Shown piece after piece: positions 4,033 through 45,678 of a DNA stretch of 64,000 bases (within the stretch, counting starts at the first letter, position 1; every line of letters starts with the position of its first letter). The notes beneath the pieces are model-generated. The model was not told where the DNA came from and did no database searches. It saw only the letters and a list, made by a program, of their open reading frames with translations. Origin of the DNA: Rhodospirillaceae bacterium. Its GTDB lineage: Bacteria > Pseudomonadota > Gammaproteobacteria > Steroidobacterales > Rariloculaceae. Location of the stretch: positions 42,446-106,445 of the forward strand of contig JAHEKF010000003.1 of the NCBI GenBank assembly GCA_024638465.1. The letters run 5' to 3'. The position numbers and the translations under genes were made by a program.

Positions 4033-5178
4033 TTACAAAATATTCATGCCCAGCCAGCTATGAATGTATTCCGCAATCTCCTTGCTGTTGAGCTCGAGCA
4101 TCATCATATGACCGTTGCCCGGCAAACCGACGTCTTCCATCAGCACGTATTCCGTGTCGACACCCGCCTGATTGAGCCAGTTCGCGAGACAATGATCGAA
4201 GATGCGGTGATAGCCTCCTTCGCCGTTCATGAACAGTACGGGTATATCGGTGAGGTTGACAAGCTGGCGAGCCGGCTCCTGCTGTTGATAACACGGAACG
4301 AGACCGGGTCCTTCGGCTTGCGCCTGCAGTTCGACCATGAGTTCCGACGGGTCGCTAACCGGAGGATCGTAAGTAATTGGCGTATTCCCTACGCCCCAGG
4401 AAAGGCCACCACCGTCGCGATAGGTCACGTTCGTCGTGTCGACGCCGCGAATAGGCGGTGCCGCAGGCTCCAGGGTCACAATAACTTCGACGAGATCCGG
4501 ACGCAGGTCCGCGATATTCCAGCCGAACCAGCCGCCCTGCGAATGTGTCAGCAGAATCACCGGCGTGCCAATCATGTCCAGCAGTTCGACATTCGCGTCG
4601 ATCGTGAGCTGCGCCTGGCGCCCACCTATATATTGGACCTGGGTTTTCATGAACGCGTCCATTACGGGATCACCCATTCGACCACTTCCAGGCCACTGCG
4701 TGTGCTTTGCGGCCTGCGGGAAATCTGCGGTCGCTGCGGAGGCCGTGAATATCTGCTCGATACCGGGCGCGTTGCGAATATTCAAATTTCCGTCAACGCC
4801 CGGAACGTACTGGGAGCGACCGCGCGCAGGAAAGTCCTGCATATACACGACGTAGCCCATATCGACGAAGTTGTAAGCCCAACCTGGCCTTCCATCGGGC
4901 GTCTGCAGCCAGTCGACACCGGTCTGCCCCGCGCCGTGCAAAAGCACGATTGGATACGGATGCAGAATTTCTCGCGGCACGAGAACCTCAACGTACATCG
5001 CACCACCCATCGTCTCTTCGCCGGGCTCGCCGACGTATTCGCCGCCCACGTAGAAATAGCCGTGCCTCGCGACGTTGTCGAGCGCTACCGTCGGAATCGA
5101 ATCCGGCGGCGCCTGCGCAAAAGCACCGGCTCCGACACAAAGCAGCAGCGACGTAAGCAAAATCTCTCTAGCGTTCAT
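4033..5178 (-). CDS. Exported alpha/beta hydrolase
   Basis: VLLHGAGQTG oxyanion region, LTHSQGG nucleophile elbow, C-terminal GNGHMMMLE; start moved to MNAREILL with a signal peptide. Confidence 0.82.
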   Translation of the reverse strand: MNAREILLTSLLLCVGAGAFAQAPPDSIPTVALDNVARHGYFYVGGEYVGEPGEETMGGAMYVEVLVPREILHPYPIVLLHGAGQTGVDWLQTPDGRPGWAYNFVDMGYVVYMQDFPARGRSQYVPGVDGNLNIRNAPGIEQIFTASAATADFPQAAKHTQWPGSGRMGDPVMDAFMKTQVQYIGGRQAQLTIDANVELLDMIGTPVILLTHSQGGWFGWNIADLRPDLVEVIVTLEPAAPPIRGVDTTNVTYRDGGGLSWGVGNTPITYDPPVSDPSELMVELQAQAEGPGLVPCYQQQEPARQLVNLTDIPVLFMNGEGGYHRIFDHCLANWLNQAGVDTEYVLMEDVGLPGNGHMMMLELNSKEIAEYIHSWLGMNIL

Positions 5179-5233
5179 AGGATCTCTCCGTACGCAACGA
5201 TCAGATCGTGTATCCAATTTTCAGAAGCGGAAA

Positions 5234-6499
5234 CTATTCCCACGCGGCGTAGACCGGTTTGCCGATCAGGGTTTCGGGTCGCGCTCCCCGGCGCGGCGTG
5301 TATTTCTGCACACGCCCGTTTCCGACTTCAGCGATGTAGAAGTTGCCTTCCTGGTCGACGCTCAACCCGTGCACACCCCATTGAGCGCCCGGAAAATCGC
5401 CAAAGACGCCCCAGGAATACAGGAAGTTGCCATCGAGATCGTAGCCAAGAATCTTGCTGGTCGCCCGATCTGCCGCCCACAGAACCCGGTCCGCGCCAAT
5501 GTAGAACAGATGAATGTCCGTGGGCTCGGGGCCGAAGCTCCATTCGTCCAGAAACTCGCCATCTTCGGTAAAGACCTGGACGCGATTGTTAGCGCGATCG
5601 TTCACGAACACGCGGCGCGTCTCGACATCCACGGCAACGCCGTGAACATTGTTCATATAACCCGGCCGCGTCTCGTTCGGCGGATTGCCCGGCTGACCCC
5701 AGGTCATGAGGTAGTTACCATCGTGGTCGAACTTCACTACGCGGGTATTGGCATAGCCATCTGCAACGAACATCGCGTCGTCCAGAAACGCCATGAAAGT
5801 AGGCCGGTAAAAATGCTCAGGGTCGTTACCCGATTCATTCGGAATACCGATCGTCTGAACGAGTTCCGAGCCGTCATTAGTGAACTTGAAGATCGCATGC
5901 CGGAAGTCGTCAACGACCCAGACGTGCTTCTCCGGATCGTAGGGATTGATCGTCACATAATGCGGACGGCGGAACAGACTGTCCCATTGAGTCCATTCCT
6001 CGATGATCTCGCCGTCACTGTTCACGACAACCAGGCAGTGCTCCCATCTGTGATCGACGCCGTGAACGCCACGATCGGTATCGTCGCCATCCAATGCGCC
6101 GGGAAGGCTCGCGCGAGGTCCGACAGAGGCGTTGCGCCATGGTAGTTGCGCGACAGGAAACGACAACGCCGGTCCGGCCTCCGGATAAACCGTGGCCGGC
6201 GGCCGTTCGATGTTCGGCAATTCGCCGCGATGAAGAATAAATACGCGATCGGGACTCTCGGCAAACACACTTTGACCGGCGCCGTACGTCCAGGCTGAAT
6301 GACCGGGGAGATCCGCGAGATCCTGTGGCCAGTCCGCGTCTACGTTATACGGGCCAAACATGTCCTGTCCGCCTTTTTGCCCGGGAACGGCAGCGAACCC
6401 CGGGGTCCCGCTCTGAGCGAATGCGATATGGCTGCCACCGGCGAGTGCGACTGCAACTCCGGCCGCCGCCCCCAAAAGCCCTCTGAATCGGTTATTCAT
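5234..6499 (-). CDS. Exported NHL-repeat / six-bladed beta-propeller protein
   Basis: NHL-like repeats (NVHGVAVDVETRRVFVNDRANNRVQVF, GVHGLSVDQEGNFYIAEVGNGRVQKYTP); start chosen at MNNRFRG. Confidence 0.8.
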   Translation of the reverse strand: MNNRFRGLLGAAAGVAVALAGGSHIAFAQSGTPGFAAVPGQKGGQDMFGPYNVDADWPQDLADLPGHSAWTYGAGQSVFAESPDRVFILHRGELPNIERPPATVYPEAGPALSFPVAQLPWRNASVGPRASLPGALDGDDTDRGVHGVDHRWEHCLVVVNSDGEIIEEWTQWDSLFRRPHYVTINPYDPEKHVWVVDDFRHAIFKFTNDGSELVQTIGIPNESGNDPEHFYRPTFMAFLDDAMFVADGYANTRVVKFDHDGNYLMTWGQPGNPPNETRPGYMNNVHGVAVDVETRRVFVNDRANNRVQVFTEDGEFLDEWSFGPEPTDIHLFYIGADRVLWAADRATSKILGYDLDGNFLYSWGVFGDFPGAQWGVHGLSVDQEGNFYIAEVGNGRVQKYTPRRGARPETLIGKPVYAAWE

Positions 6500-6532
6500 T
6501 CGTTGTTTCTCCGCTTTCTTATTCACGTTTCG

Positions 6533-7813
6533 TTATTCGATGTTGTCCTGAATCCATTCGTGGATATAGGCAACGATGTCGTCGCTGTTGAGCTCCAGCA
6601 TCATCATGTGACCGTTCCCACTGATACCCACGTCTTCCAGCCGAACAAAATCGGTTTCGACGCCGGCCTGATTGAGCCATTTTGGAATGCAGGCATCGAA
6701 TACACGGTGATAAGTGCCGTCGGCGGAAAGCGCGAGAACCCGCATATCGGCCATGTTGACCAGCTGGCGCGCAGGTTCTTCCTGCAGATAGCACGGGACT
6801 TCGCCGGGCTGGTCGCCCTCTTCCTCGAGATAGGTTACGAGTTCAGACGGATCGCCAACGGGCGGCTCATAGGTCAGGGGGTAGTTCACCGGCCCCCAGG
6901 CATTCGCCGGCCGCCCGGAATAGGCAACTTCAGCCGTATTGACGTTCCCGATCTGCGGACCGCCCGGCTCGACCGTGACGATTCCGCGAACGAGTTCGGG
7001 CCTGCCGTCCGCGACGCCCCAGCCGACACCGCCGCCCTGCGAGTGCGTTAACAGAATTACCGGCTGCCCTATCGTGTCGAGCAGTTCCATCGCCGCAAAG
7101 CGCGCCATCTCCGTACTGCGCCCTGCGAACTGAACCTGCGACCTGATGAAGTTATCGAAGATCGCGTCGCCGCGATGACCGCCACCCGGCCATTGCGTGT
7201 GGTTGTCCTTCAGCGGAAAATTTCCTTTCTCGCCGACGTTCGTCCAGATACGCTCGAGCTGCTCGGCTGTGCGGATTCCGAGATCGCCATGCTCGCCGCC
7301 CGGAATATAGGTCGAGCGACCTCGCGCCGGGTAGTCGACCATGTAGAGCGTGTAACCCTGCTCTACCAGGTAATACGCCCATCCCGCTCTGCCATCGGGC
7401 GTAACGAGCCAGTCGAAACCCGTCTGGCCGTTGCCATGGAACATGACCAGGGGATACGGCTGCGTCGCTTCACGCGGCTCCCAGACCTCGACGTACATAT
7501 GACCGCCCATGATCGGCGGCTCACCGACATAGTCGCCTCCGGCATAGAAGAATCCCTTGCTCGCGATATGTTCTGTCGAGAACGTCGGTATGGCATCGGG
7601 TGGGGACGCCGGAGAACTTTCGACGACTGTTGCTGTTGCCGGCGCAGGCGCAGGCGCAGGCGCGGGCATGGTCGTCGCCATCGCATCGCTAGCATTCGGA
7701 TCGGTTGCCGATGCCATGGGTTCGGATTCGCTATTACTGCCACAGCCGGCGAGTAGTGAAACGGCAACGATTGTCGTTACCGCAGAAATCGGGTGACACG
7801 TTTTCGGGATCAT
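6533..7813 (-). CDS. Alpha/beta hydrolase lipoprotein, paralogue of 4033-5178
   Basis: Lipobox LLAGCG, Ala/Pro linker, VMFHGNGQTG, LTHSQGG, GNGHMMMLE. Confidence 0.83.
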   Translation of the reverse strand: MIPKTCHPISAVTTIVAVSLLAGCGSNSESEPMASATDPNASDAMATTMPAPAPAPAPATATVVESSPASPPDAIPTFSTEHIASKGFFYAGGDYVGEPPIMGGHMYVEVWEPREATQPYPLVMFHGNGQTGFDWLVTPDGRAGWAYYLVEQGYTLYMVDYPARGRSTYIPGGEHGDLGIRTAEQLERIWTNVGEKGNFPLKDNHTQWPGGGHRGDAIFDNFIRSQVQFAGRSTEMARFAAMELLDTIGQPVILLTHSQGGGVGWGVADGRPELVRGIVTVEPGGPQIGNVNTAEVAYSGRPANAWGPVNYPLTYEPPVGDPSELVTYLEEEGDQPGEVPCYLQEEPARQLVNMADMRVLALSADGTYHRVFDACIPKWLNQAGVETDFVRLEDVGISGNGHMMMLELNSDDIVAYIHEWIQDNIE

Positions 7814-32696: not shown

Positions 32697-32712
32697 TGGC
32701 GCACTTCTTGCA
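32697..32712 (+). promoter_or_regulatory. Weaker candidate sigma-54 promoter
   Basis: TGGCGCA-CTTC-TTGCA; GG/GC dinucleotides at canonical spacing, two mismatches to TGGCACG-N4-TTGCW. Confidence 0.35.
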
Positions 32713-32754: not shown

Positions 32755-34581
32755 GTGCCTGAAGTACTCAATATCCATGGCAGCCTGACGCTACTGCTGA
32801 CCGTAGGGGCCATCGTGCTCTTTACGCGAGATCGAATCCCGCTGGAGACTTCCGCGCTGGCGGTCCTCGTCCTGCTGGTGGTGCTGTTCGAACTGCTGCC
32901 GTTCTCGCGCGACGGCAACATCCTGCATTCAACCGAATTTTTTTCAGGCTTCGGTCACGAGGCGCTGGTCAGCATCTGCGCCCTCATGATCATGGGGCGT
33001 GGACTGGAGAGAACGGCAGCCCTGCAGCCGGTCGCCTTCGCGCTCGCCAGAGCCTGGCCCCGCTACCCAACCGCGACGCTTCTGGTGACGCTGGTTGTCG
33101 GCGCGCTGCTCAGCGGATTCGTCAACAACACCCCGATCGTCATCATGCTGCTGCCAATGCTGGTCGCCGTTGGCCTGGAGAACGACTTTCCGCCGAGCCG
33201 GATCCTTTTACCAATGGGTCTCGCAACGATCGTCGGCGGCATGGCTACGACGATCGGAACATCGACCAATCTTCTGGTCGTTTCGATCGCTGCCGACATG
33301 GGGATGCGCAACTTCGGCATGTTCGATTTTTCCATTCCTGTACTGATCGCGGGTTCTCTCGGAATCATTTTCCTGTGGCTCATTGCGCCCAGAATTCTTC
33401 CGGAACGCGAACCGCCCCTCACCGATACGTCACCGCGCATTTTCGCCGGCCGAATACGTATCGACGAAGATAGCAAAGTCGCCGGTCTGACCTTCGCCGA
33501 GGCGCTCGACCTGACGAACGGGCGAATGCGCGTCGAGGAGATTCAACGCGGCGAAAATCTGTTTCTGATGAAGCTTCCCACGGTGGTCCTGAAACCGGGC
33601 GACCGGTTGCTGGTCAACGACACGCCGGAAAATCTCAAGCTCTTCGAGCAACAGCTCGGCACCACGCTGGGCGAAAACCAGCGCGAGGAAAAGCTTGCCG
33701 ATGAGCCGGCTGCTACGGGCGACGATGGCGAGCAGCAAAAGCTCGCGGAAATCGCCGTGACCTCCGGATCGTTACTCGACAACCGAAAGCTCGTAGAGGT
33801 CGGATTCGAAAACCGTTTCAAGCTCCTTCCGGTCGCGCTACACCACGCTGGCAGCCAGGTAGCTGACATCGCAAATACGAAGCTATCCGTCGGTGACGTA
33901 CTCCTGGTTCAGGGAGAGAGCGAAAATATTGAAGCACTGAAAAGATCTGCGGAGGTCATGGTTCTGGATGGCATCACGGATTTGCCGGTGCAGAAGAAAG
34001 CACGCCTCGCGCTCGCCATCATGGGCGCAGTAGTCGCCGCCGCGGCAATCGGCCTGGCACCCATCTCCGTGGCCGCTATCGTCGGGGTATTGGCGATGCT
34101 GCTCACGCGCTGCCTGTCATGGTCGGACGCCGGTGAGGCACTCAGCATTCCGGTCATCATGATTATCGTTACCAGCCTCGCGCTCGGTCAGGCCCTGATT
34201 GCGACGGGCGGCGCCGAATTCCTCGCGGAGCTGTTCCTGAACGCGGTCGAAGGGCTGTCGCTCGGCCTGGTGCTCGCAATCCTCATGATCTCGATGACAG
34301 CGGTTACGAACATTGTCTCCAATAACGCAGCGGCGATTATCGGCACGCCTGTCGCTGTCGACATCGCGCTGGGACTGAATGCGCCGATCGAGCCGTTTCT
34401 CCTTGCCATCATCTTCGGTGCGAACATGAGTTTCGCAACCCCGATCGGCTACAAGACCAATTTGCTGGTCATGAGCGCCGGCGGATACAGATTCAGCGAT
34501 TTCCTGAGAGTCGGCATGCCGCTCACACTTATTATGTGGGTTACGCTGTCGCTTCTGCTTTTGGTGATGTACGACTTGTGA
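32755..34581 (+). CDS. SLC13/DASS-family permease with TrkA-C (RCK_C) domains
   Basis: Multi-TM; FVNNTPIVIMLLPMLVAVG, GTSTNLLVVSIA, soluble TrkA-C-like central region; GTG start. Confidence 0.85.
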   Translation: MPEVLNIHGSLTLLLTVGAIVLFTRDRIPLETSALAVLVLLVVLFELLPFSRDGNILHSTEFFSGFGHEALVSICALMIMGRGLERTAALQPVAFALARAWPRYPTATLLVTLVVGALLSGFVNNTPIVIMLLPMLVAVGLENDFPPSRILLPMGLATIVGGMATTIGTSTNLLVVSIAADMGMRNFGMFDFSIPVLIAGSLGIIFLWLIAPRILPEREPPLTDTSPRIFAGRIRIDEDSKVAGLTFAEALDLTNGRMRVEEIQRGENLFLMKLPTVVLKPGDRLLVNDTPENLKLFEQQLGTTLGENQREEKLADEPAATGDDGEQQKLAEIAVTSGSLLDNRKLVEVGFENRFKLLPVALHHAGSQVADIANTKLSVGDVLLVQGESENIEALKRSAEVMVLDGITDLPVQKKARLALAIMGAVVAAAAIGLAPISVAAIVGVLAMLLTRCLSWSDAGEALSIPVIMIIVTSLALGQALIATGGAEFLAELFLNAVEGLSLGLVLAILMISMTAVTNIVSNNAAAIIGTPVAVDIALGLNAPIEPFLLAIIFGANMSFATPIGYKTNLLVMSAGGYRFSDFLRVGMPLTLIMWVTLSLLLLVMYDL

Positions 34582-35054: not shown

Positions 35055-37136
35055 CTAGCCGAATCGCGAAGTATCCAGCGCTACGGATGCGTCACTCTTG
35101 TCGGTGATGTGAAAGTGACCGGACGGCGATGCGTCGGTTGGAAGACGGACCGAAAAAGCGGCCCCCGCGCCAGGACCATCGCTCGTCGCTTCAATCGTAC
35201 CGCCGTGTGCTTTCACGAGCGCGTGCACGATAGACAATCCGACTCCCAGGCCGGCGATACTCGCATCCGCGCGCCAGAACGGCTCGAAAATCTGATCGAT
35301 CTGTTCAGCGGTCAGGCCTTTACCTGTGTCGCGCACGGTGATTTCCAGGTGCTCGTCTTCGACCCGGGCACGAAAATGGATCCGACCGCCGGTCGGCGTG
35401 TACTTGGCCGCGTTATTCAATAAATTTCGGACGATCTGCTGCAATCTGACGGCGTCAACGTTCGCATTGAAGTCGCCCGGTTCGATTACCACAACAAGCT
35501 CATGCTCGGCTTCGATACCCGGACGCAGCTCTTCCACGGTGCTCTCGAGAAGCTCGCGCGCATCGATCTCTTCGGATTCCAGGCGTATTCCCGATTTGGC
35601 GATTCGCGAGATATCCACGAGATCGTCAATCAGGCGCGATTGCGAATCGATACTTTGCAGCATGATCGCAAGACCTTTGTTTCGCGTCTCGACTCTATCG
35701 TCCAGCTCCATTAGCCGCAGCCAGGTCAGCGCGGCATTTAACGGAGTCCGGAGCTCGTGTGAGATAACGTGGACGAATGTGTCGCGCATCGAAGCGGCGA
35801 CCCGTGCTTCGTCCAGCGCCTCACGCAGCCGGTTGCCCTGGTCTTTGCTTTTCGTAATGTCGTCGAGTACACCGACGATATGAGTAATTTCGCCTTCGTG
35901 GTTTTCGATGGGTGCCAGACTGAGCCGGTTCCAGAAAACGCTGCCATCCTTGCGGCAATTTCTGAACTCAACGGTGCCGCTCTTTCCGTTCGCGACCAGC
36001 GTACGAACTTCGTCCATGATCTCCGGCGGATTATCCGCGCCCTGATTTAAAAAGCGGCAATTTCTACCGATGCACTCATCGAAATCGTACCCGGTTATTT
36101 TCGTGAACGCCTCGTTCACGAAAACGATCGGCTGGTCAGGAGCGCGGTAATCTGATATCGCGACACCGTTGGTGGCTGCCGCCAGCGCGCGATCCTTGAC
36201 GAAGAGCGCGCTCTCCGCGCGACGCAGGACGATGACGGAAACGAATGCGACGGCCGCGGCCACGAACACCGAGCCCAGTGAAGTAATCGCGACTGCCAGC
36301 GGCCCCTCGAAAAAACGTCCGTAACCTGCCGTCACAACGGCGCCGACCAACAATGGTGCACAGATGATCATGATCAGGAGCGCGCGTACATGCGAACTGA
36401 CCAGGGATTCATCACTGAGCAGCGCCGGCAAGCCTGAACTTGGATGCAACCAGAAAACCCCTAGCGCGACTACCGCGAACAGCAGCGCTGTCGGCAAAGC
36501 CATTGCCGTCACACCCGATCCGCCCAGATAGAACGCGGGCTGGCCGTAAGCATGGCCAACGAGAGATATCACGGCGATGAGCAACACGATCGCTGCCAGA
36601 ACGCGCGCCGGAGCGCGGCTTTCGATTCCGCGCCAGTGGTCTGCGAGAAACCCGCACGCGAGCAGCAGGAACCCGATCGCCGACGTAGGCGCCATCCGGC
36701 CCGGCGAAGATGTGTCGGTCGCGTTCGTCGATTCGGCAATCAGCAATTGATCGATGCCGAGGTTGGATCCGAAGAGATACTGCGCAAGCGTCAATAGCCC
36801 GAGCGACAAAAGCAATGCTTCGAGCGTCCACCGGGACTTCTGCAATATCGGCGATGAATCGAGCTGGGCGAGCAGCAGCAAGACGGCACAGATCAGGAAT
36901 CCGCTGGCCGTGTTGATTTTCATTGAGACCCGGTCGGGGCTGAAACTCGTGAGCGCATCGACATCGAGCAGCCAGCCGGCGATGACCGCGATACTCACCA
37001 TCAGCGTGAATCCGGCGGCGATTGTCGGTAGCGTAAGCGCCAGCGCTCGGTTTCGGGACGAGAGTTGAGAAGAGCTCATTCGATAAAACTCCGACAATTC
37101 GACCGGCGTGCTTATTGTTTTGACACTGAGCGCCAT
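35055..37136 (-). CDS. Multi-TM sensor histidine kinase with LOV/PAS domain
   Basis: About 8 TM segments, LOV signature GRNCRFLN with adduct Cys, then HisKA (HELRTPLNAALTWL) and HATPase (NLLNNAAKYTP, DTGKGL, LGVGLSIVHAL). Confidence 0.9.
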   Translation of the reverse strand: MALSVKTISTPVELSEFYRMSSSQLSSRNRALALTLPTIAAGFTLMVSIAVIAGWLLDVDALTSFSPDRVSMKINTASGFLICAVLLLLAQLDSSPILQKSRWTLEALLLSLGLLTLAQYLFGSNLGIDQLLIAESTNATDTSSPGRMAPTSAIGFLLLACGFLADHWRGIESRAPARVLAAIVLLIAVISLVGHAYGQPAFYLGGSGVTAMALPTALLFAVVALGVFWLHPSSGLPALLSDESLVSSHVRALLIMIICAPLLVGAVVTAGYGRFFEGPLAVAITSLGSVFVAAAVAFVSVIVLRRAESALFVKDRALAAATNGVAISDYRAPDQPIVFVNEAFTKITGYDFDECIGRNCRFLNQGADNPPEIMDEVRTLVANGKSGTVEFRNCRKDGSVFWNRLSLAPIENHEGEITHIVGVLDDITKSKDQGNRLREALDEARVAASMRDTFVHVISHELRTPLNAALTWLRLMELDDRVETRNKGLAIMLQSIDSQSRLIDDLVDISRIAKSGIRLESEEIDARELLESTVEELRPGIEAEHELVVVIEPGDFNANVDAVRLQQIVRNLLNNAAKYTPTGGRIHFRARVEDEHLEITVRDTGKGLTAEQIDQIFEPFWRADASIAGLGVGLSIVHALVKAHGGTIEATSDGPGAGAAFSVRLPTDASPSGHFHITDKSDASVALDTSRFG

Positions 37137-37225: not shown

Positions 37226-38542
37226 ATGCCACAGGTACTGATTGTAGACGATGAAGAGTCGTTTTCTAGCGGCATATCCGAGTTCCTGCAGCTCCAGGGC
37301 CACTCGGTCACCGCTGCCCGCTCGCTCGCGGCGGCTCGTGACGCTTTGACGGAGGGCGTTCCGGACGTAGTCGTACTGGATCTGATGTTGCCCGACGGCA
37401 GCGGTTTACAGTTGCTCGACTCGTTCGAAAACAATCGTCCGCAGAAAATCATCATCGTCACCGGTCACGCCGGCGTTAAATCGCTCATCGGCGGTATGGC
37501 CGGCAGCAACGTCTCATACATGAAGAAGCCGATTGAGCCGCGAGAGCTCGTTGGCGTAATCAATACCCTGAGTGTCGACGCACCGTCGCCGCAGTCACCA
37601 ACAGTGCGCGCTCACTTCGGACTACTTGTCGGCGAAAGCGAAGCCATGCAGGAGGTCTACAAGAAGATTCGCCAGGTAGCGGCGACGGACAGTACGGTAT
37701 TCATCCAGGGTGAAAGCGGAACCGGTAAAGAACTGGTGGCGGAATCAGTCCACCGTTACAGCGACAGGCCGGGCACGTTCCTCCCGGTCAACTGTGGCGG
37801 TCTCACGAAGGACCTGGTGTCGGCGCAGCTTTTCGGCCATGAGAAAGGCAGTTTCACCGGTGCGAACCGTCGTCATGCCGGCTTCTTCGAGCGCGCGAAC
37901 GACGGCACACTGTTTCTCGACGAAATCACGGAGATGCCGATCGAGATGCAGACACACCTGCTGCGGGTGCTCGAGACCGGGCAGATTCTTCGGGTGGGCG
38001 CCGAGCAGGAAATCGGCGTCGATGCGCGTCTCATCGCGGCGACGAACCGCGATCCTGCAGATGCCGTAAGCGCGGGAGCGTTGCGGGAGGACCTGTACTT
38101 TCGCCTCAGAGTATTTCCGATCGCTCTGCCGCCACTGCGAGAGCGATCCGGAGACGTTGCCCTGCTCGCGAACAGCTTCCTGGCGGACCTCAACTCGAAG
38201 CATTCGACGGACAAAAGCTTCTCCGACGACGCGATCGAGCGACTGGAAAGACATTCCTGGCCGGGCAATGTACGCGAACTGAAACATACCGTTCACCGGG
38301 CCTACATTATGGCCGATAACGACGTCGTATCGGTGCCGGAACGATTCGACGACGATCTGCCGCAAAAAATCGATGGTCTTCGCGCAGGCCGGTCGATCGC
38401 GGACGTAGAGAGAGACCTGATCCTGACGACGCTGAATCACCTCAACGGCGACAAGAAAGCGGCAGCCGCTGATCTCGGTATCAGTCTCAAGACGCTCTAC
38501 AATCGGCTCAAGGAATACGGTCAGGACACGACTGAACCGTAG
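37226..38542 (+). CDS. NtrC-type sigma-54-dependent response regulator (REC-AAA+-HTH)
   Basis: Receiver (VDDEE, DLMLPDGSG, TGH, KKP), Walker A GESGTGKE, GSFTGA (GAFTGA variant), ISLKTLYNRLKEYG helix-turn-helix; start at MPQVLIVDDE. Confidence 0.94.
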   Translation: MPQVLIVDDEESFSSGISEFLQLQGHSVTAARSLAAARDALTEGVPDVVVLDLMLPDGSGLQLLDSFENNRPQKIIIVTGHAGVKSLIGGMAGSNVSYMKKPIEPRELVGVINTLSVDAPSPQSPTVRAHFGLLVGESEAMQEVYKKIRQVAATDSTVFIQGESGTGKELVAESVHRYSDRPGTFLPVNCGGLTKDLVSAQLFGHEKGSFTGANRRHAGFFERANDGTLFLDEITEMPIEMQTHLLRVLETGQILRVGAEQEIGVDARLIAATNRDPADAVSAGALREDLYFRLRVFPIALPPLRERSGDVALLANSFLADLNSKHSTDKSFSDDAIERLERHSWPGNVRELKHTVHRAYIMADNDVVSVPERFDDDLPQKIDGLRAGRSIADVERDLILTTLNHLNGDKKAAAADLGISLKTLYNRLKEYGQDTTEP

Positions 38543-38576
38543 TGCGACAAGCGCCACGTTGTCTGCGGTCCCGCCG

Positions 38577-38592
38577 TGGCACAATTTTTGCT
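38577..38592 (+). promoter_or_regulatory. Candidate sigma-54 promoter upstream of stand-alone receiver
   Basis: TGGCACA-ATTT-TTGCT, one mismatch to TGGCACG-N4-TTGCW. Confidence 0.6.
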
Positions 38593-38622
38593 TTCATGTC
38601 TGAAGAACCGGTTTCTTCGAGA

Positions 38623-39030
38623 ATGAAAGTTAACCAGAGCAAAGCAGACCCGAGCCGCGCGAAGTTAAAACGCGTGCTGATCGTTGAAGACGAGCCGTCG
38701 GCCAGAGAGGCGACCGGACGCTACCTCGAGCATTGCGGATTCGAGGTTGCCGCGGCCGCGAGCGCGAAGGAGGCGGTACAGCGCGCTTCTGAACTGGGGC
38801 CGGAGGTCGTGGTGTGCGACTGGCAGCTTGCCGGTGGCGATAACGGCGCTGTTGTAGCGCGACAGCTCCAGAGTCGTTTTGGCGCTGCTATCATTTTTGT
38901 CACCGCACACCCCCTCGACGAGCTACGCGACGCCACCCGAGACCTCGACGTAGCCACTTACCTGCGCAAGCCGATATCGCTCGCGACGCTCGCCGCAACG
39001 ATCAACGACGTCCTGTCCAGTCCCGCTTGA
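38623..39030 (+). CDS. Stand-alone receiver-domain response regulator
   Basis: RVLIVEDEPSAREATGRYL, CDWQLAGGDNG, VTAHP, YLRKPIS; start placed downstream of the sigma-54 site, alternative ATG at 38596. Confidence 0.85.
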   Translation: MKVNQSKADPSRAKLKRVLIVEDEPSAREATGRYLEHCGFEVAAAASAKEAVQRASELGPEVVVCDWQLAGGDNGAVVARQLQSRFGAAIIFVTAHPLDELRDATRDLDVATYLRKPISLATLAATINDVLSSPA

Positions 39031-39171: not shown

Positions 39172-39187
39172 TGGCACGGTATCTGCA
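39172..39187 (+). promoter_or_regulatory. Candidate sigma-54 promoter
   Basis: TGGCACG-GTAT-CTGCA, one mismatch to TGGCACG-N4-TTGCW; 39 bp before the ATG at 39227. Confidence 0.7.
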
Positions 39188-39226: not shown

Positions 39227-39400
39227 ATGCTTTCATGGGCACTCACGTTTTTCGTACTCGCCGTAATCGCCGCTGTTCTGGGCTTTACGGGAATCGCAGG
39301 CGCGGCAGCGAATATCGCTCAGGTGCTGTTTTTCCTGTTCCTCGGGCTACTGCTCATCAGCGCGATCGCAGGCGCATTGCGTGGCCGACCACCCGTTTAA
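39227..39400 (+). CDS. DUF1328 small membrane protein (57 aa)
   Basis: [63 protein letters not shown] upstream; missing from the ORF track. Confidence 0.88.
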
Positions 39401-39418: not shown

Positions 39419-39571
39419 ATGAAGAAGTTTATCGTCGCGTTGATTTTCGGAGTCTTCGGCCTGTCGCTGGCAGGGTGTAACACGACGCGCGGCGTCGGCC
39501 AGGACATTCAGGCTGCGGGCGAATCGATCGAAGATTTCGCAGAGGAAACCCGCGAAGACCTCAACGATTAA
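39419..39571 (+). CDS. Entericidin-like small lipoprotein (50 aa)
   Basis: MKKFIVALIFGVFGLSLAGCNTTRGVGQDIQAAGESIEDFAEETREDLND; lipobox LAGC; missing from the ORF track. Confidence 0.88.
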   Translation: MKKFIVALIFGVFGLSLAGCNTTRGVGQDIQAAGESIEDFAEETREDLND

Positions 39572-39601: not shown

Positions 39602-39898
39602 ATGAGCACCAAAGAATCAGCCGCCCCGACAAGCAACGGTTCCGCCGCGCGACGTCTCGCCGAAGCCGCACACGCGGTCGTCGACGAAACGGCAGAAAAG
39701 GCCGAAGCGGTAGAGAAAAAGGTCCGCACCCAGGCAGCCGAAGCCAATGAGAAGCTGGAAGCGTCGCAGGAAGCCGCCATCCGTACGGTCGAAAGTTCGA
39801 TCGAGCGGCTCGAAGGCTTCGTCAAGAGCCGCCCGGTAGTCGCCACTGGTGCTGCTTTCGCCGCGGGCATTCTGGCCACAGCCCTGCTGCGTCGCTAG
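39602..39898 (+). CDS. DUF883/YqjD-ElaB-like protein with C-terminal TM
   Basis: Ala/Glu-rich coiled coil followed by KSRPVVATGAAFAAGILATALLRR. Confidence 0.75.
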   Translation: MSTKESAAPTSNGSAARRLAEAAHAVVDETAEKAEAVEKKVRTQAAEANEKLEASQEAAIRTVESSIERLEGFVKSRPVVATGAAFAAGILATALLRR

Positions 39899-39908
39899 AG
39901 GGTACGAC

Positions 39909-40310
39909 GTGGCAAGCCACTCCGACCCCATACCCGCCGCTACCGACCCGGCCCCGAGCTTGCCGAAGCTTGCCCAGGGCTGGGTCGCTGCGGCGGGTGC
40001 CACGGTTAAATCGACAACCGAGCTCGCGTTCGCTGAGGCCAGGCTTGCCGCCGTCAGCGTTCCGGCCATGTTAATGGCGGCAGTACTTTCCGCGGCATGC
40101 CTGCTATTAGGGTGGGTGCTGCTTGTCAGCGCACTTGCTTACTCTCTGGTAGGACTCGGAATCACTCCCGCGAAGGCTTTTTTACTGATTGGCGCGCCGC
40201 ATTTTCTCGCCGCCATTCTTCTCTGGCGTCTGGTTGAGCGCCTGAGCCGCAACCTCGATTTCGCCCACACACGCCAGCACCTCGCCGGCTCCGATGAGAA
40301 GACCGACTGA
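39909..40310 (+). CDS. YqjE-like phage-holin-family membrane protein
   Basis: Hydrophobic helices AVLSAACLLLGWVLLVSALAYSLVGLGI, position after the YqjD-like gene; GTG start. Confidence 0.72.
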   Translation: MASHSDPIPAATDPAPSLPKLAQGWVAAAGATVKSTTELAFAEARLAAVSVPAMLMAAVLSAACLLLGWVLLVSALAYSLVGLGITPAKAFLLIGAPHFLAAILLWRLVERLSRNLDFAHTRQHLAGSDEKTD

Positions 40311-40576: not shown

Positions 40577-40764
40577 CCGCATAATGCCCCTCGCCGAATC
40601 CCGCGGAATCGGTTTCAGCCCTCAAAGACCTCCTGCTACCGCAGATTCGGCGCACGACCAGCCCTCCCAGGCCGGGCGGCAAGTTTTTCACCCGCATTTG
40701 TAAATCGTTCCACGATTCAGTCAGGTGGCGGCTCCTGCCCCCCGGAAAGCCTGCAGTTCAGAGT

Positions 40765-40780
40765 TGGCACGTTATCTGCA
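40765..40780 (+). promoter_or_regulatory. Candidate sigma-54 promoter
   Basis: TGGCACG-TTAT-CTGCA; nearly identical to the 39172 promoter (TTGGCACG[G/T]TATCTGCAT shared). Confidence 0.7.
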
Positions 40781-40856: not shown

Positions 40857-41744
40857 GTGTTTCAGGATCTGGTTGAAGTAGTGAACCTGCAGGTACTCAT
40901 GACGCAGGCCATCGAGTTCGTGCCGCGACTGCTGATCGCGATCGGCATCGTCATCGCGGCAGTCGTCCTGTTCCGGATCACGCGCATCGGCCTGGAAAAG
41001 ATACTCGAGAAAGCCGACTTCCAGCCGGTCCTGATCAATCTGCTGATCGACAAGCTTTACCGCTACACGATTCTGGCGCTCGGTTTGATCATGGCAGTCG
41101 ATCAGCTGGGCGTAAACGTCGCCGCGGCACTCGCTGGACTCGGTGTCGCGGGTATCGCCATCGGCTTCGCAGCGCAGGATTCAGTGGCCAACGTCATCTC
41201 GGGCATCCTGATTTTCTGGGACAAGCCGTTCGTCGTCGGCGACTGGATCAGCACGGAAGGTCAGTACGGCAAAGTAACCAATATCACTTTACGCACAACC
41301 CGGATTCGAACGCCAAAAAATACCTACGTGGTGGTCCCGAATAAACGGATCATCGACGAACTGCTCGAGAATCACAGCAAACACGGTGAACTACGCGTCG
41401 ATGTCCCGGTCGGGATCGCCTACAAGGAAGACATCGACAAGGCCCGCGACGTTCTGCTGGAGGCCGCGCAAAATATCGAACACGCATTGGATGATCCTGC
41501 GCCTGACGTCGTCGTCGACGAACTGGGCGGCTCGAGCGTAAATCTCAAGGTCCGGGTCTGGGTCTCCGAGGCGTCGAAGCAGCGCAAGACCTTCTTCGAG
41601 CTCACCGAAGCCGCGAAGAAAGCGCTGGACAATGCTGGAATCGAGATTCCGTTCCCGCACCTGCAACTCTTTGTGGACAACGTCGAAGACCAGATATGGA
41701 GCCAGGCGTCGAATGCATTTAGCGGGCTGCGCAAAGCGAGCTGA
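40857..41744 (+). CDS. MscS-family small-conductance mechanosensitive channel
   Basis: AGLGVAGIAIGFAAQDSVANVISGILIFWDKPFVVGDWI. Confidence 0.92.
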   Translation: MFQDLVEVVNLQVLMTQAIEFVPRLLIAIGIVIAAVVLFRITRIGLEKILEKADFQPVLINLLIDKLYRYTILALGLIMAVDQLGVNVAAALAGLGVAGIAIGFAAQDSVANVISGILIFWDKPFVVGDWISTEGQYGKVTNITLRTTRIRTPKNTYVVVPNKRIIDELLENHSKHGELRVDVPVGIAYKEDIDKARDVLLEAAQNIEHALDDPAPDVVVDELGGSSVNLKVRVWVSEASKQRKTFFELTEAAKKALDNAGIEIPFPHLQLFVDNVEDQIWSQASNAFSGLRKAS

Positions 41745-44805: not shown

Positions 44806-44821
44806 CGGCACGAAACTTGCT
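44806..44821 (+). promoter_or_regulatory. Candidate sigma-54 promoter upstream of SOD
   Basis: CGGCACG-AAAC-TTGCT, one mismatch to TGGCACG-N4-TTGCW; 48 bp before the ATG. Confidence 0.6.
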
Positions 44822-44868: not shown

Positions 44869-45678
44869 ATGAGCTACCAACTTTCGGACCTTCCCTATGC
44901 GTACGACGCGCTGGCGCCGCACATCGGCCCGCAGACTCTGAAGATTCATCACGGCAAACACCATCGCGCCTATGTCGACAGGCTCAACGAGCTGACCGAG
45001 GGCAATATCGATTCTGATGCGAAGCTGCAGCACTTGCTTGGCAAGGCCGATGGCGCGCTGTTCGACCAGGCCGCGCAGGTCTGGAACCATTCGTTCTACT
45101 GGCAGTCCATGTCCCCCGACGGCGGAGGAAATCCCGACGGCGAGCTCGCCAAAGCGCTAGCGTCGGCATTCGGCAGCGTCGAGCGTTTCCGCACGGAGTT
45201 CGCGGAGGCTGCGAAAGGAACATTCGGTTCCGGCTGGGCCTGGCTCGTGCAGGATCGTGACGGAAAGCTTCGGGTTATCAACACGTCCAATGCGGATACG
45301 CCCATACGCCACGATCTGACACCGCTACTGACAATCGATGTCTGGGAACACGCGTATTATCTCGATTACCAGAACGACCGCGGCGCTTACGTCGAGACCT
45401 TTCTAAAACACGTTTTGAACTGGTCGTTCGTTGCAAGCAATTTCACGACGGCATTCCGCGACATGATGCGGCGACCTGGCGAAATTTTCGAGGCGCCCGG
45501 AGATGTACTGGATCATCCCGCGCTGTCGAAAACGCAACGAATCGAAGTGTTACAGCAATGGCGTTATGATGCGGTTCAGCTGCAGGTCGCTGCTCAGGAG
45601 AATATGACCGGGGGCGAGCAGGGAGCCGGCTTTATCGAGAAAATCGACCAGGCGCTGACGCAGCTCGACCGGAACTGA
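44869..45678 (+). CDS. sodB: Fe/Mn superoxide dismutase with C-terminal extension
   Basis: LKIHHGKHHRAYVDRLNE, DVWEHAYYLDYQN, plus about 70 extra C-terminal residues. Confidence 0.93.
   Translation: MSYQLSDLPYAYDALAPHIGPQTLKIHHGKHHRAYVDRLNELTEGNIDSDAKLQHLLGKADGALFDQAAQVWNHSFYWQSMSPDGGGNPDGELAKALASAFGSVERFRTEFAEAAKGTFGSGWAWLVQDRDGKLRVINTSNADTPIRHDLTPLLTIDVWEHAYYLDYQNDRGAYVETFLKHVLNWSFVASNFTTAFRDMMRRPGEIFEAPGDVLDHPALSKTQRIEVLQQWRYDAVQLQVAAQENMTGGEQGAGFIEKIDQALTQLDRN

Follow-up and report, generated by a model that had tools for sequence, protein, structure and literature searches.

A membrane-anchored LOV histidine kinase family without the pocket glutamines and its predicted sigma-54 stress circuit

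YtvA/YF1, Brucella LOV-HK and Caulobacter LovK combine the LOV fold with a LOV-controlled kinase or a general-stress output, as we propose here for a new locus. They differ from the kinase described below in that they keep the signalling glutamine, work through sigma-B or PhyR/EcfG-type pathways rather than sigma-54, and employ soluble kinases. Blue-light sensors of B. subtilis and C. crescentus have been linked to stress (PMC6932827). In the BphP-AlgB system of Pseudomonas (PMC6932827) a photoreceptor histidine kinase likewise acts on an NtrC-family response regulator, but there the sensor is a phytochrome and the regulon serves biofilm formation and virulence.

LOV domains lacking the glutamine of the last beta strand (Gln513 of AsLOV2) also occur naturally. 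About 350 of them, mainly with Leu or Ile, were catalogued by Dietler et al. (2022; PMC9098866); in that study, one natural Met-bearing case is a working light-repressed diguanylate cyclase, and Gln-to-Leu exchange in AsLOV2, YF1 and NmPAL attenuates the response without abolishing it. For AsLOV2 the exchange left half the CD amplitude and slowed recovery ∼22-fold, in keeping with the original prediction that it weakens signalling by phototropin LOV2. These LOV-deltaQ receptors, for example the LOV-GGDEF-EAL protein of Mesorhizobium loti, keep the LOV residues while Gln513 gives way to Leu, Ile, Met or others, as in our case. Unlike these, members of the family treated here are membrane-anchored histidine kinases that additionally carry Asn for Gln454 and adjoin a sigma-54 regulator. 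Lack of the glutamine is not new in natural LOVs and is ordinary for LOV-deltaQ receptors.

A LOV kinase lacking Gln513 and Gln454

The window (the whole 64,000-nucleotide stretch of DNA analysed) encodes a sensor histidine kinase on the minus strand, in an open reading frame (35055..37136; 693 aa from 37136) matching HisKA, HATPase_c and PAS. Its native start is probably the Met at 37079 (MSSSQLSS), giving 674 aa, because orthologues align from there. Both the HisKA H-box and HATPase_c were found, with the phospho-acceptor His in SHELRTPLN (35757..35759, minus strand). Hydropathy predicts an N-terminal membrane domain of ∼8–9 hydrophobic helices (36192..37079, minus strand); the N-terminal ∼300 residues gave no Pfam family above cut-off, and their SMKxNT and TSSPGRMxP motifs are conserved across kinase orthologues. 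The membrane domain was also matched, at 27–36% identity, in other large ORFs of the class (e.g. L049, L057, L073, L085).

Between membrane domain and HisKA lies the LOV core (35853..36170, minus strand). Its best sequence matches among solved structures were all LOV proteins, and phmmer matched it to a LOV diguanylate cyclase at 2e-28. An AF2 model built from six orthologues reached a pLDDT of 87, and the top 50 Foldseek hits to it were LOV structures only, including Meiothermus LOV, YF1, YtvA and Brucella LOV-HK. Sequence, AF2 and Foldseek all place the domain in the PAS/LOV fold.

Residues were numbered by reference sequences of AsLOV2 and YtvA. The adduct-forming Cys (Cys450) is read from TGC at 36057..36059, within GxNCRFL, and the first residue past NCRFL, at the Gln454 position, is Asn (AAT, 36045..36047). 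In the last strand, HIVGVLDDIT, Leu (CTC, 35865..35867) takes the place of the conserved Gln513; all three codons are on the minus strand. The other flavin contacts, Asn449, Arg451, Arg467, Asn482, Asn492 and Gly511, are retained. The original prediction of a natural LOV domain without its signalling glutamine, with this Cys, this Leu and Asn for the Gln after RFL, is borne out on each point.

A glutamine in another register would have undone that reading, and alignment revealed none. At 513, phmmer aligns HIVGVL gap-free in the strand with HYLGIQ, HFVGIQ and HYIGYQ of solved LOV domains. At 454, the following loop has one extra residue, and Gln346 could in principle slide onto the position. 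Comparison of orthologues rejects this: all seven kinases have Asn345, whereas the neighbouring position holds R, R, D, R, R and P in the six orthologues, making Asn the true Gln454 equivalent. With the remaining conserved LOV residues present, Gln513 absent and Gln454 replaced as well, the domain is filed, on its sequence, as LOV-deltaQ rather than canonical LOV, since Gln513 is known not to be obligatory.

Five genomes, all from a single other family of the order, encode full-length orthologues (50–54% identical, with the same membrane-LOV-kinase architecture); four of the five are Woeseia/Woeseiaceae or gammaproteobacterial MAGs. A sixth orthologue came from a Xanthomonadaceae MAG (L110), and the window's own family, sampled in 21 further genomes, yielded none. 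The window kinase and these six form one clade with support of 100/99. Position 513 is occupied in its seven members by L, I, A, V, M, V and L, never by Gln, and residue 454 is Asn throughout. Cys450 is kept in six (five TGC, one TGT) and is Pro in L110. All seven share Asn449, Arg451, Asn482, Asn492 and Gly511, whereas over the whole domain the modal residue has a mean frequency of 0.69.

The L110 kinase (4915–6867) reads GRNPRFLN, with Pro for the adduct Cys and Leu at 513, and is a natural LOV with neither Cys nor Gln. The Cys-less LOV-like protein BAT (PMC4682037) also has Pro at the Cys position but retains the Gln. With its Pro in place of the Cys, L110 shows that retention of the module does not require the adduct.

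Loss of Gln513 proved to be no unique oddity. Among LOV domains from searches over ∼1,300 genomes, a sample leaning towards the query's relatives, 22 of 63 with the Cys lacked Gln513, 13 of these having Leu there and an intact Gln454; on a tree of 80 LOV domains the state switches at least seven times. A second, separate Gln-less clade occurs in the same order (L058, L060, L061, L062, L064, L069, L071, L132, L142), with Leu513, Gln454 and Cys kept, and the motif A[FY]AGxLTDxT, its members lying mostly within long open frames. In a clade of LOV-like domains the Cys is replaced by Leu and Gln513 by His (GRNLRFLQ ... GxHRxxGxRL; L054, L055, L056, L066, L067, L128, L137, L139, L162).

A conserved neighbourhood with clustered sigma-54 sites

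Divergent from the kinase is a gene for an NtrC-type sigma-54 response regulator (37226..38542, plus strand), with matches to Response_reg, Sigma54_activat (1.6e-64) and HTH_8 and the motifs of a receiver, an AAA+ domain whose GAFTGA loop reads GSFTGA, and a Fis-type HTH. Its orthologues beside LOV kinases are 62–71% identical. It is followed on the same strand by a single-domain CheY-like receiver (38542..39030, domain match), whose true start is probably 38596 or 38623 and which has an orthologue in all seven loci; a DUF1328 small membrane protein (39227..39400; PF07043, 3.8e-14); and an entericidin-type small lipoprotein (39419..39571; PF08085). Next come a YqjD/ElaB-like membrane-tethered helical protein (39602..39898), a YqjE/holin-superfamily-III-like membrane protein (39909..40310) and an MscS-family mechanosensitive channel (40857..41744, domain match). 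The YqjD/ElaB-like product gave no Pfam match above cut-off and is named by inference; in L107, L108, L110 and L184 its homologues lie close to DUF1328 or the regulator. The YqjE-like one has a weak PF07332 match, below cut-off, and homologues in L107, L108 and L184. Farther along, also on the plus strand, is a Fe/Mn superoxide dismutase with a C-terminal extension (44869..45678, domain match). In L184 (5714–5908) and L110 (2816–3040), homologues of the extension (45436–45675) stand separately from a dismutase match.

The neighbourhood of kinase, regulator, receiver and DUF1328 is kept over ∼50% kinase divergence. Receiver and DUF1328 adjoin the kinase in 7/7 loci and the regulator is near it in 6/7, a few genes away in L184; none was found near the L109 kinase. 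Within the Woeseiaceae-type family, DUF1328 was present in all seven module genomes compared with 1 of 100 others, although these genomes are not independent. Regulator and receiver also occur in L223 and L224, where the stretch seen holds no LOV kinase and a phospholipase D-like gene adjoins. In the window's own family, G020 has a regulator homologue (53%) divergent from a 224-residue kinase with no sensor domain. The regulator module seems to predate the LOV input or to be separable from it, as L223 and L224 carry the regulator with no LOV kinase in the stretch seen and G020 has its homologue beside a sensor-less kinase; kinase-regulator pairing is not strict, given L109 on one side and L223/L224 on the other. 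The phospholipase D-like genes (L223, 8090–9463; L224, 5317–6690) both end in WPLEYWL, and each adjoins the NtrC-type regulator and has a sigma-54 site.

We searched for sigma-54 promoters with the pattern TGGCACN5TTGCW, allowing one mismatch. The seven loci contained 20 sites, where dinucleotide shuffles gave 1.62 on average and 7 at most. Most were 55–154 bp before the ribosome site and start of stress-type genes: DUF1328, BON/OsmY, CsbD, entericidin-like and other small lipoproteins, MscS, phospholipase D-like and superoxide dismutase. In the window, the −24/−12 site TGGCACGGTATCTGCA (39172..39187) is 55 bp before the DUF1328 start, TGGCACGTTATCTGCA (40765..40780) is 92 bp before MscS, and a weaker site, CGGCACGAAACTTGCT (44806..44821), is 63 bp before superoxide dismutase, all on the plus strand. 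The DUF1328 site is equally placed in L106–L110 and L224; in the L184 genome its match is weaker, with two mismatches. Two DUF1328 copies outside the module (L227, L235) likewise have such a site; that of L230, a genome with no detected module, has none. A site at 38577 was considered as a promoter for the receiver and is doubtful, being unconserved and too near the start. A one-mismatch site, TGGCGCACTTCTTGCA (32697–32712), is just upstream of a CitMHS/TrkA_C transporter gene at 32755, with no evident palindrome.

The window's genome encodes RpoN. Genome-wide, the pattern matched 16 times, compared with 19 in a reversed control, so it was not enriched and the argument depends on clustering and gene context alone: of the 16, 3 fall within 2.2 kb at the window locus. 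The 16 include pilin, PspA, flagellar and glutamine synthetase promoters (named from translations), textbook sigma-54 genes that serve as internal validation.

A de novo dyad search yielded TTTACN8GTAAA. Of 26 upstream regions, 8 contain the exact dyad, a count that did not exceed 3 in shuffles. With one mismatch allowed, it was found in 10 of 28, compared with 0.09 expected, 78–113 bp upstream of the sigma-54 sites; these counts are not all independent, as in divergent pairs one palindrome may serve two promoters. The window's candidate regulator-binding palindrome, TTCACCCGCATTTGTAAA (40687..40704, plus strand, one mismatch), is 78 bp upstream of the MscS sigma-54 site; no good palindrome was found at its DUF1328 promoter, and within the window the upstream activator site is clear for MscS only. 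It is at the level of sequence that stress genes stand behind −24/−12 promoters with an upstream activator site. The gene content is comparable to that of a published stress regulon, since csbD, ecnAB and mscS are under general-stress control in an alphaproteobacterium (PMC7083833).

Light, redox or envelope state as the signal

The DNA itself shows the domains and pocket residues, the clade without Gln, the conservation of gene order and the enrichment of sigma-54 sites and palindromes. From these we favour, with some reserve, the interpretation that the membrane-bound Gln-less LOV kinase drives a sigma-54 envelope/general-stress regulon through the divergent NtrC-type regulator. The LOV domain would most likely bind a flavin nucleotide, and blue light, presumed to be the natural signal, would produce a Cys341-flavin adduct. 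N5 protonation would be relayed without Gln, by water, as proposed for other Gln-less LOVs, and the signal would reach the HisKA domain by way of the beta sheet and the C-terminal helix. The kinase would then set phosphorylation of its putative partner, the divergent regulator, the direction of the light effect being likewise putative. The regulator would bind TTTACN8GTAAA ∼80–110 bp upstream of the sigma-54 promoters and turn on DUF1328, entericidin-like, BON, CsbD, MscS, phospholipase D-like and superoxide dismutase genes as an envelope/general-stress regulon. The CheY-like receiver would probably act as a competitor or phosphate sink.

The main rival to light sensing is redox sensing. The LOV domain would then serve a membrane-bound kinase as a flavin redox sensor, its flavin reduced by the respiratory chain or oxidised by ROS, with the Cys incidental or a modulator. 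Loss of Gln throughout the kinase clade fits this, as do the membrane anchor, the superoxide dismutase in the predicted regulon and L110, whose Pro replaces the Cys while polar flavin contacts are still present; Cys-less LOVs can signal via flavin reduction (PMC4682037). We nonetheless regard it as unlikely. The Cys persists in 6/7 orthologues at ∼50% divergence, once with the synonymous codon TGT, and Gln-less LOVs are demonstrated photoreceptors (PMC9098866). The original prediction had offered a glutamine-less LOV or a mainly redox-sensing one; the first half stands, and the second is not supported because of this retention of the Cys.

Alternatively, the LOV domain might have decayed to a structural linker, leaving the membrane domain to sense envelope state (tension, lipid or ion) and drive the stress regulon. 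The conserved, uncharacterised 8–9 helix domain could be the true sensor, the predicted target genes are envelope-directed, and in G020 a sensor-less kinase stands beside the regulator homologue. We find a pure membrane-domain sensor quite doubtful, because the flavin pocket is conserved: the polar contacts are invariant where the average LOV position is not, and persistence of the Cys would not be expected in a relic. That kinase, regulator and sigma-54 stress genes are mere neighbours with no regulatory link, as the unpaired L109 and L223/L224 might suggest, is highly improbable given gene order, promoter and palindrome conserved over seven divergent loci and the near-exclusive co-occurrence with DUF1328.

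Returning to the LOV-driven sigma-54 circuit, a literature search for a comparable sigma-54 stress regulon gave no match. Judging by the papers searched, a coherent Gln-less family with a predicted sigma-54 stress circuit is undescribed; Gln-less LOVs had been known as scattered sequences and one tested case. The gene context suggests an undescribed light- or redox-controlled stress response, and with target promoters and a binding palindrome predicted, the pathway is open to direct testing. That residue 513 drifts among L, I, A, V and M while the Cys (6/7) and flavin pocket stay is an argument that signalling without Gln can persist through evolution. The orthologue without Cys and Gln is a natural test case for telling light from redox sensing. 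It is a tentative proposal, though a serious one, that in Woeseiaceae and relatives an envelope and general-stress regulon of the sigma-54/NtrC type is under the control of a LOV kinase family that has lost both pocket glutamines. This would add a LOV-stress wiring to those of YtvA/sigma-B and LovK/PhyR/EcfG, and the Cys-to-Pro orthologue may be a pure redox sensor.
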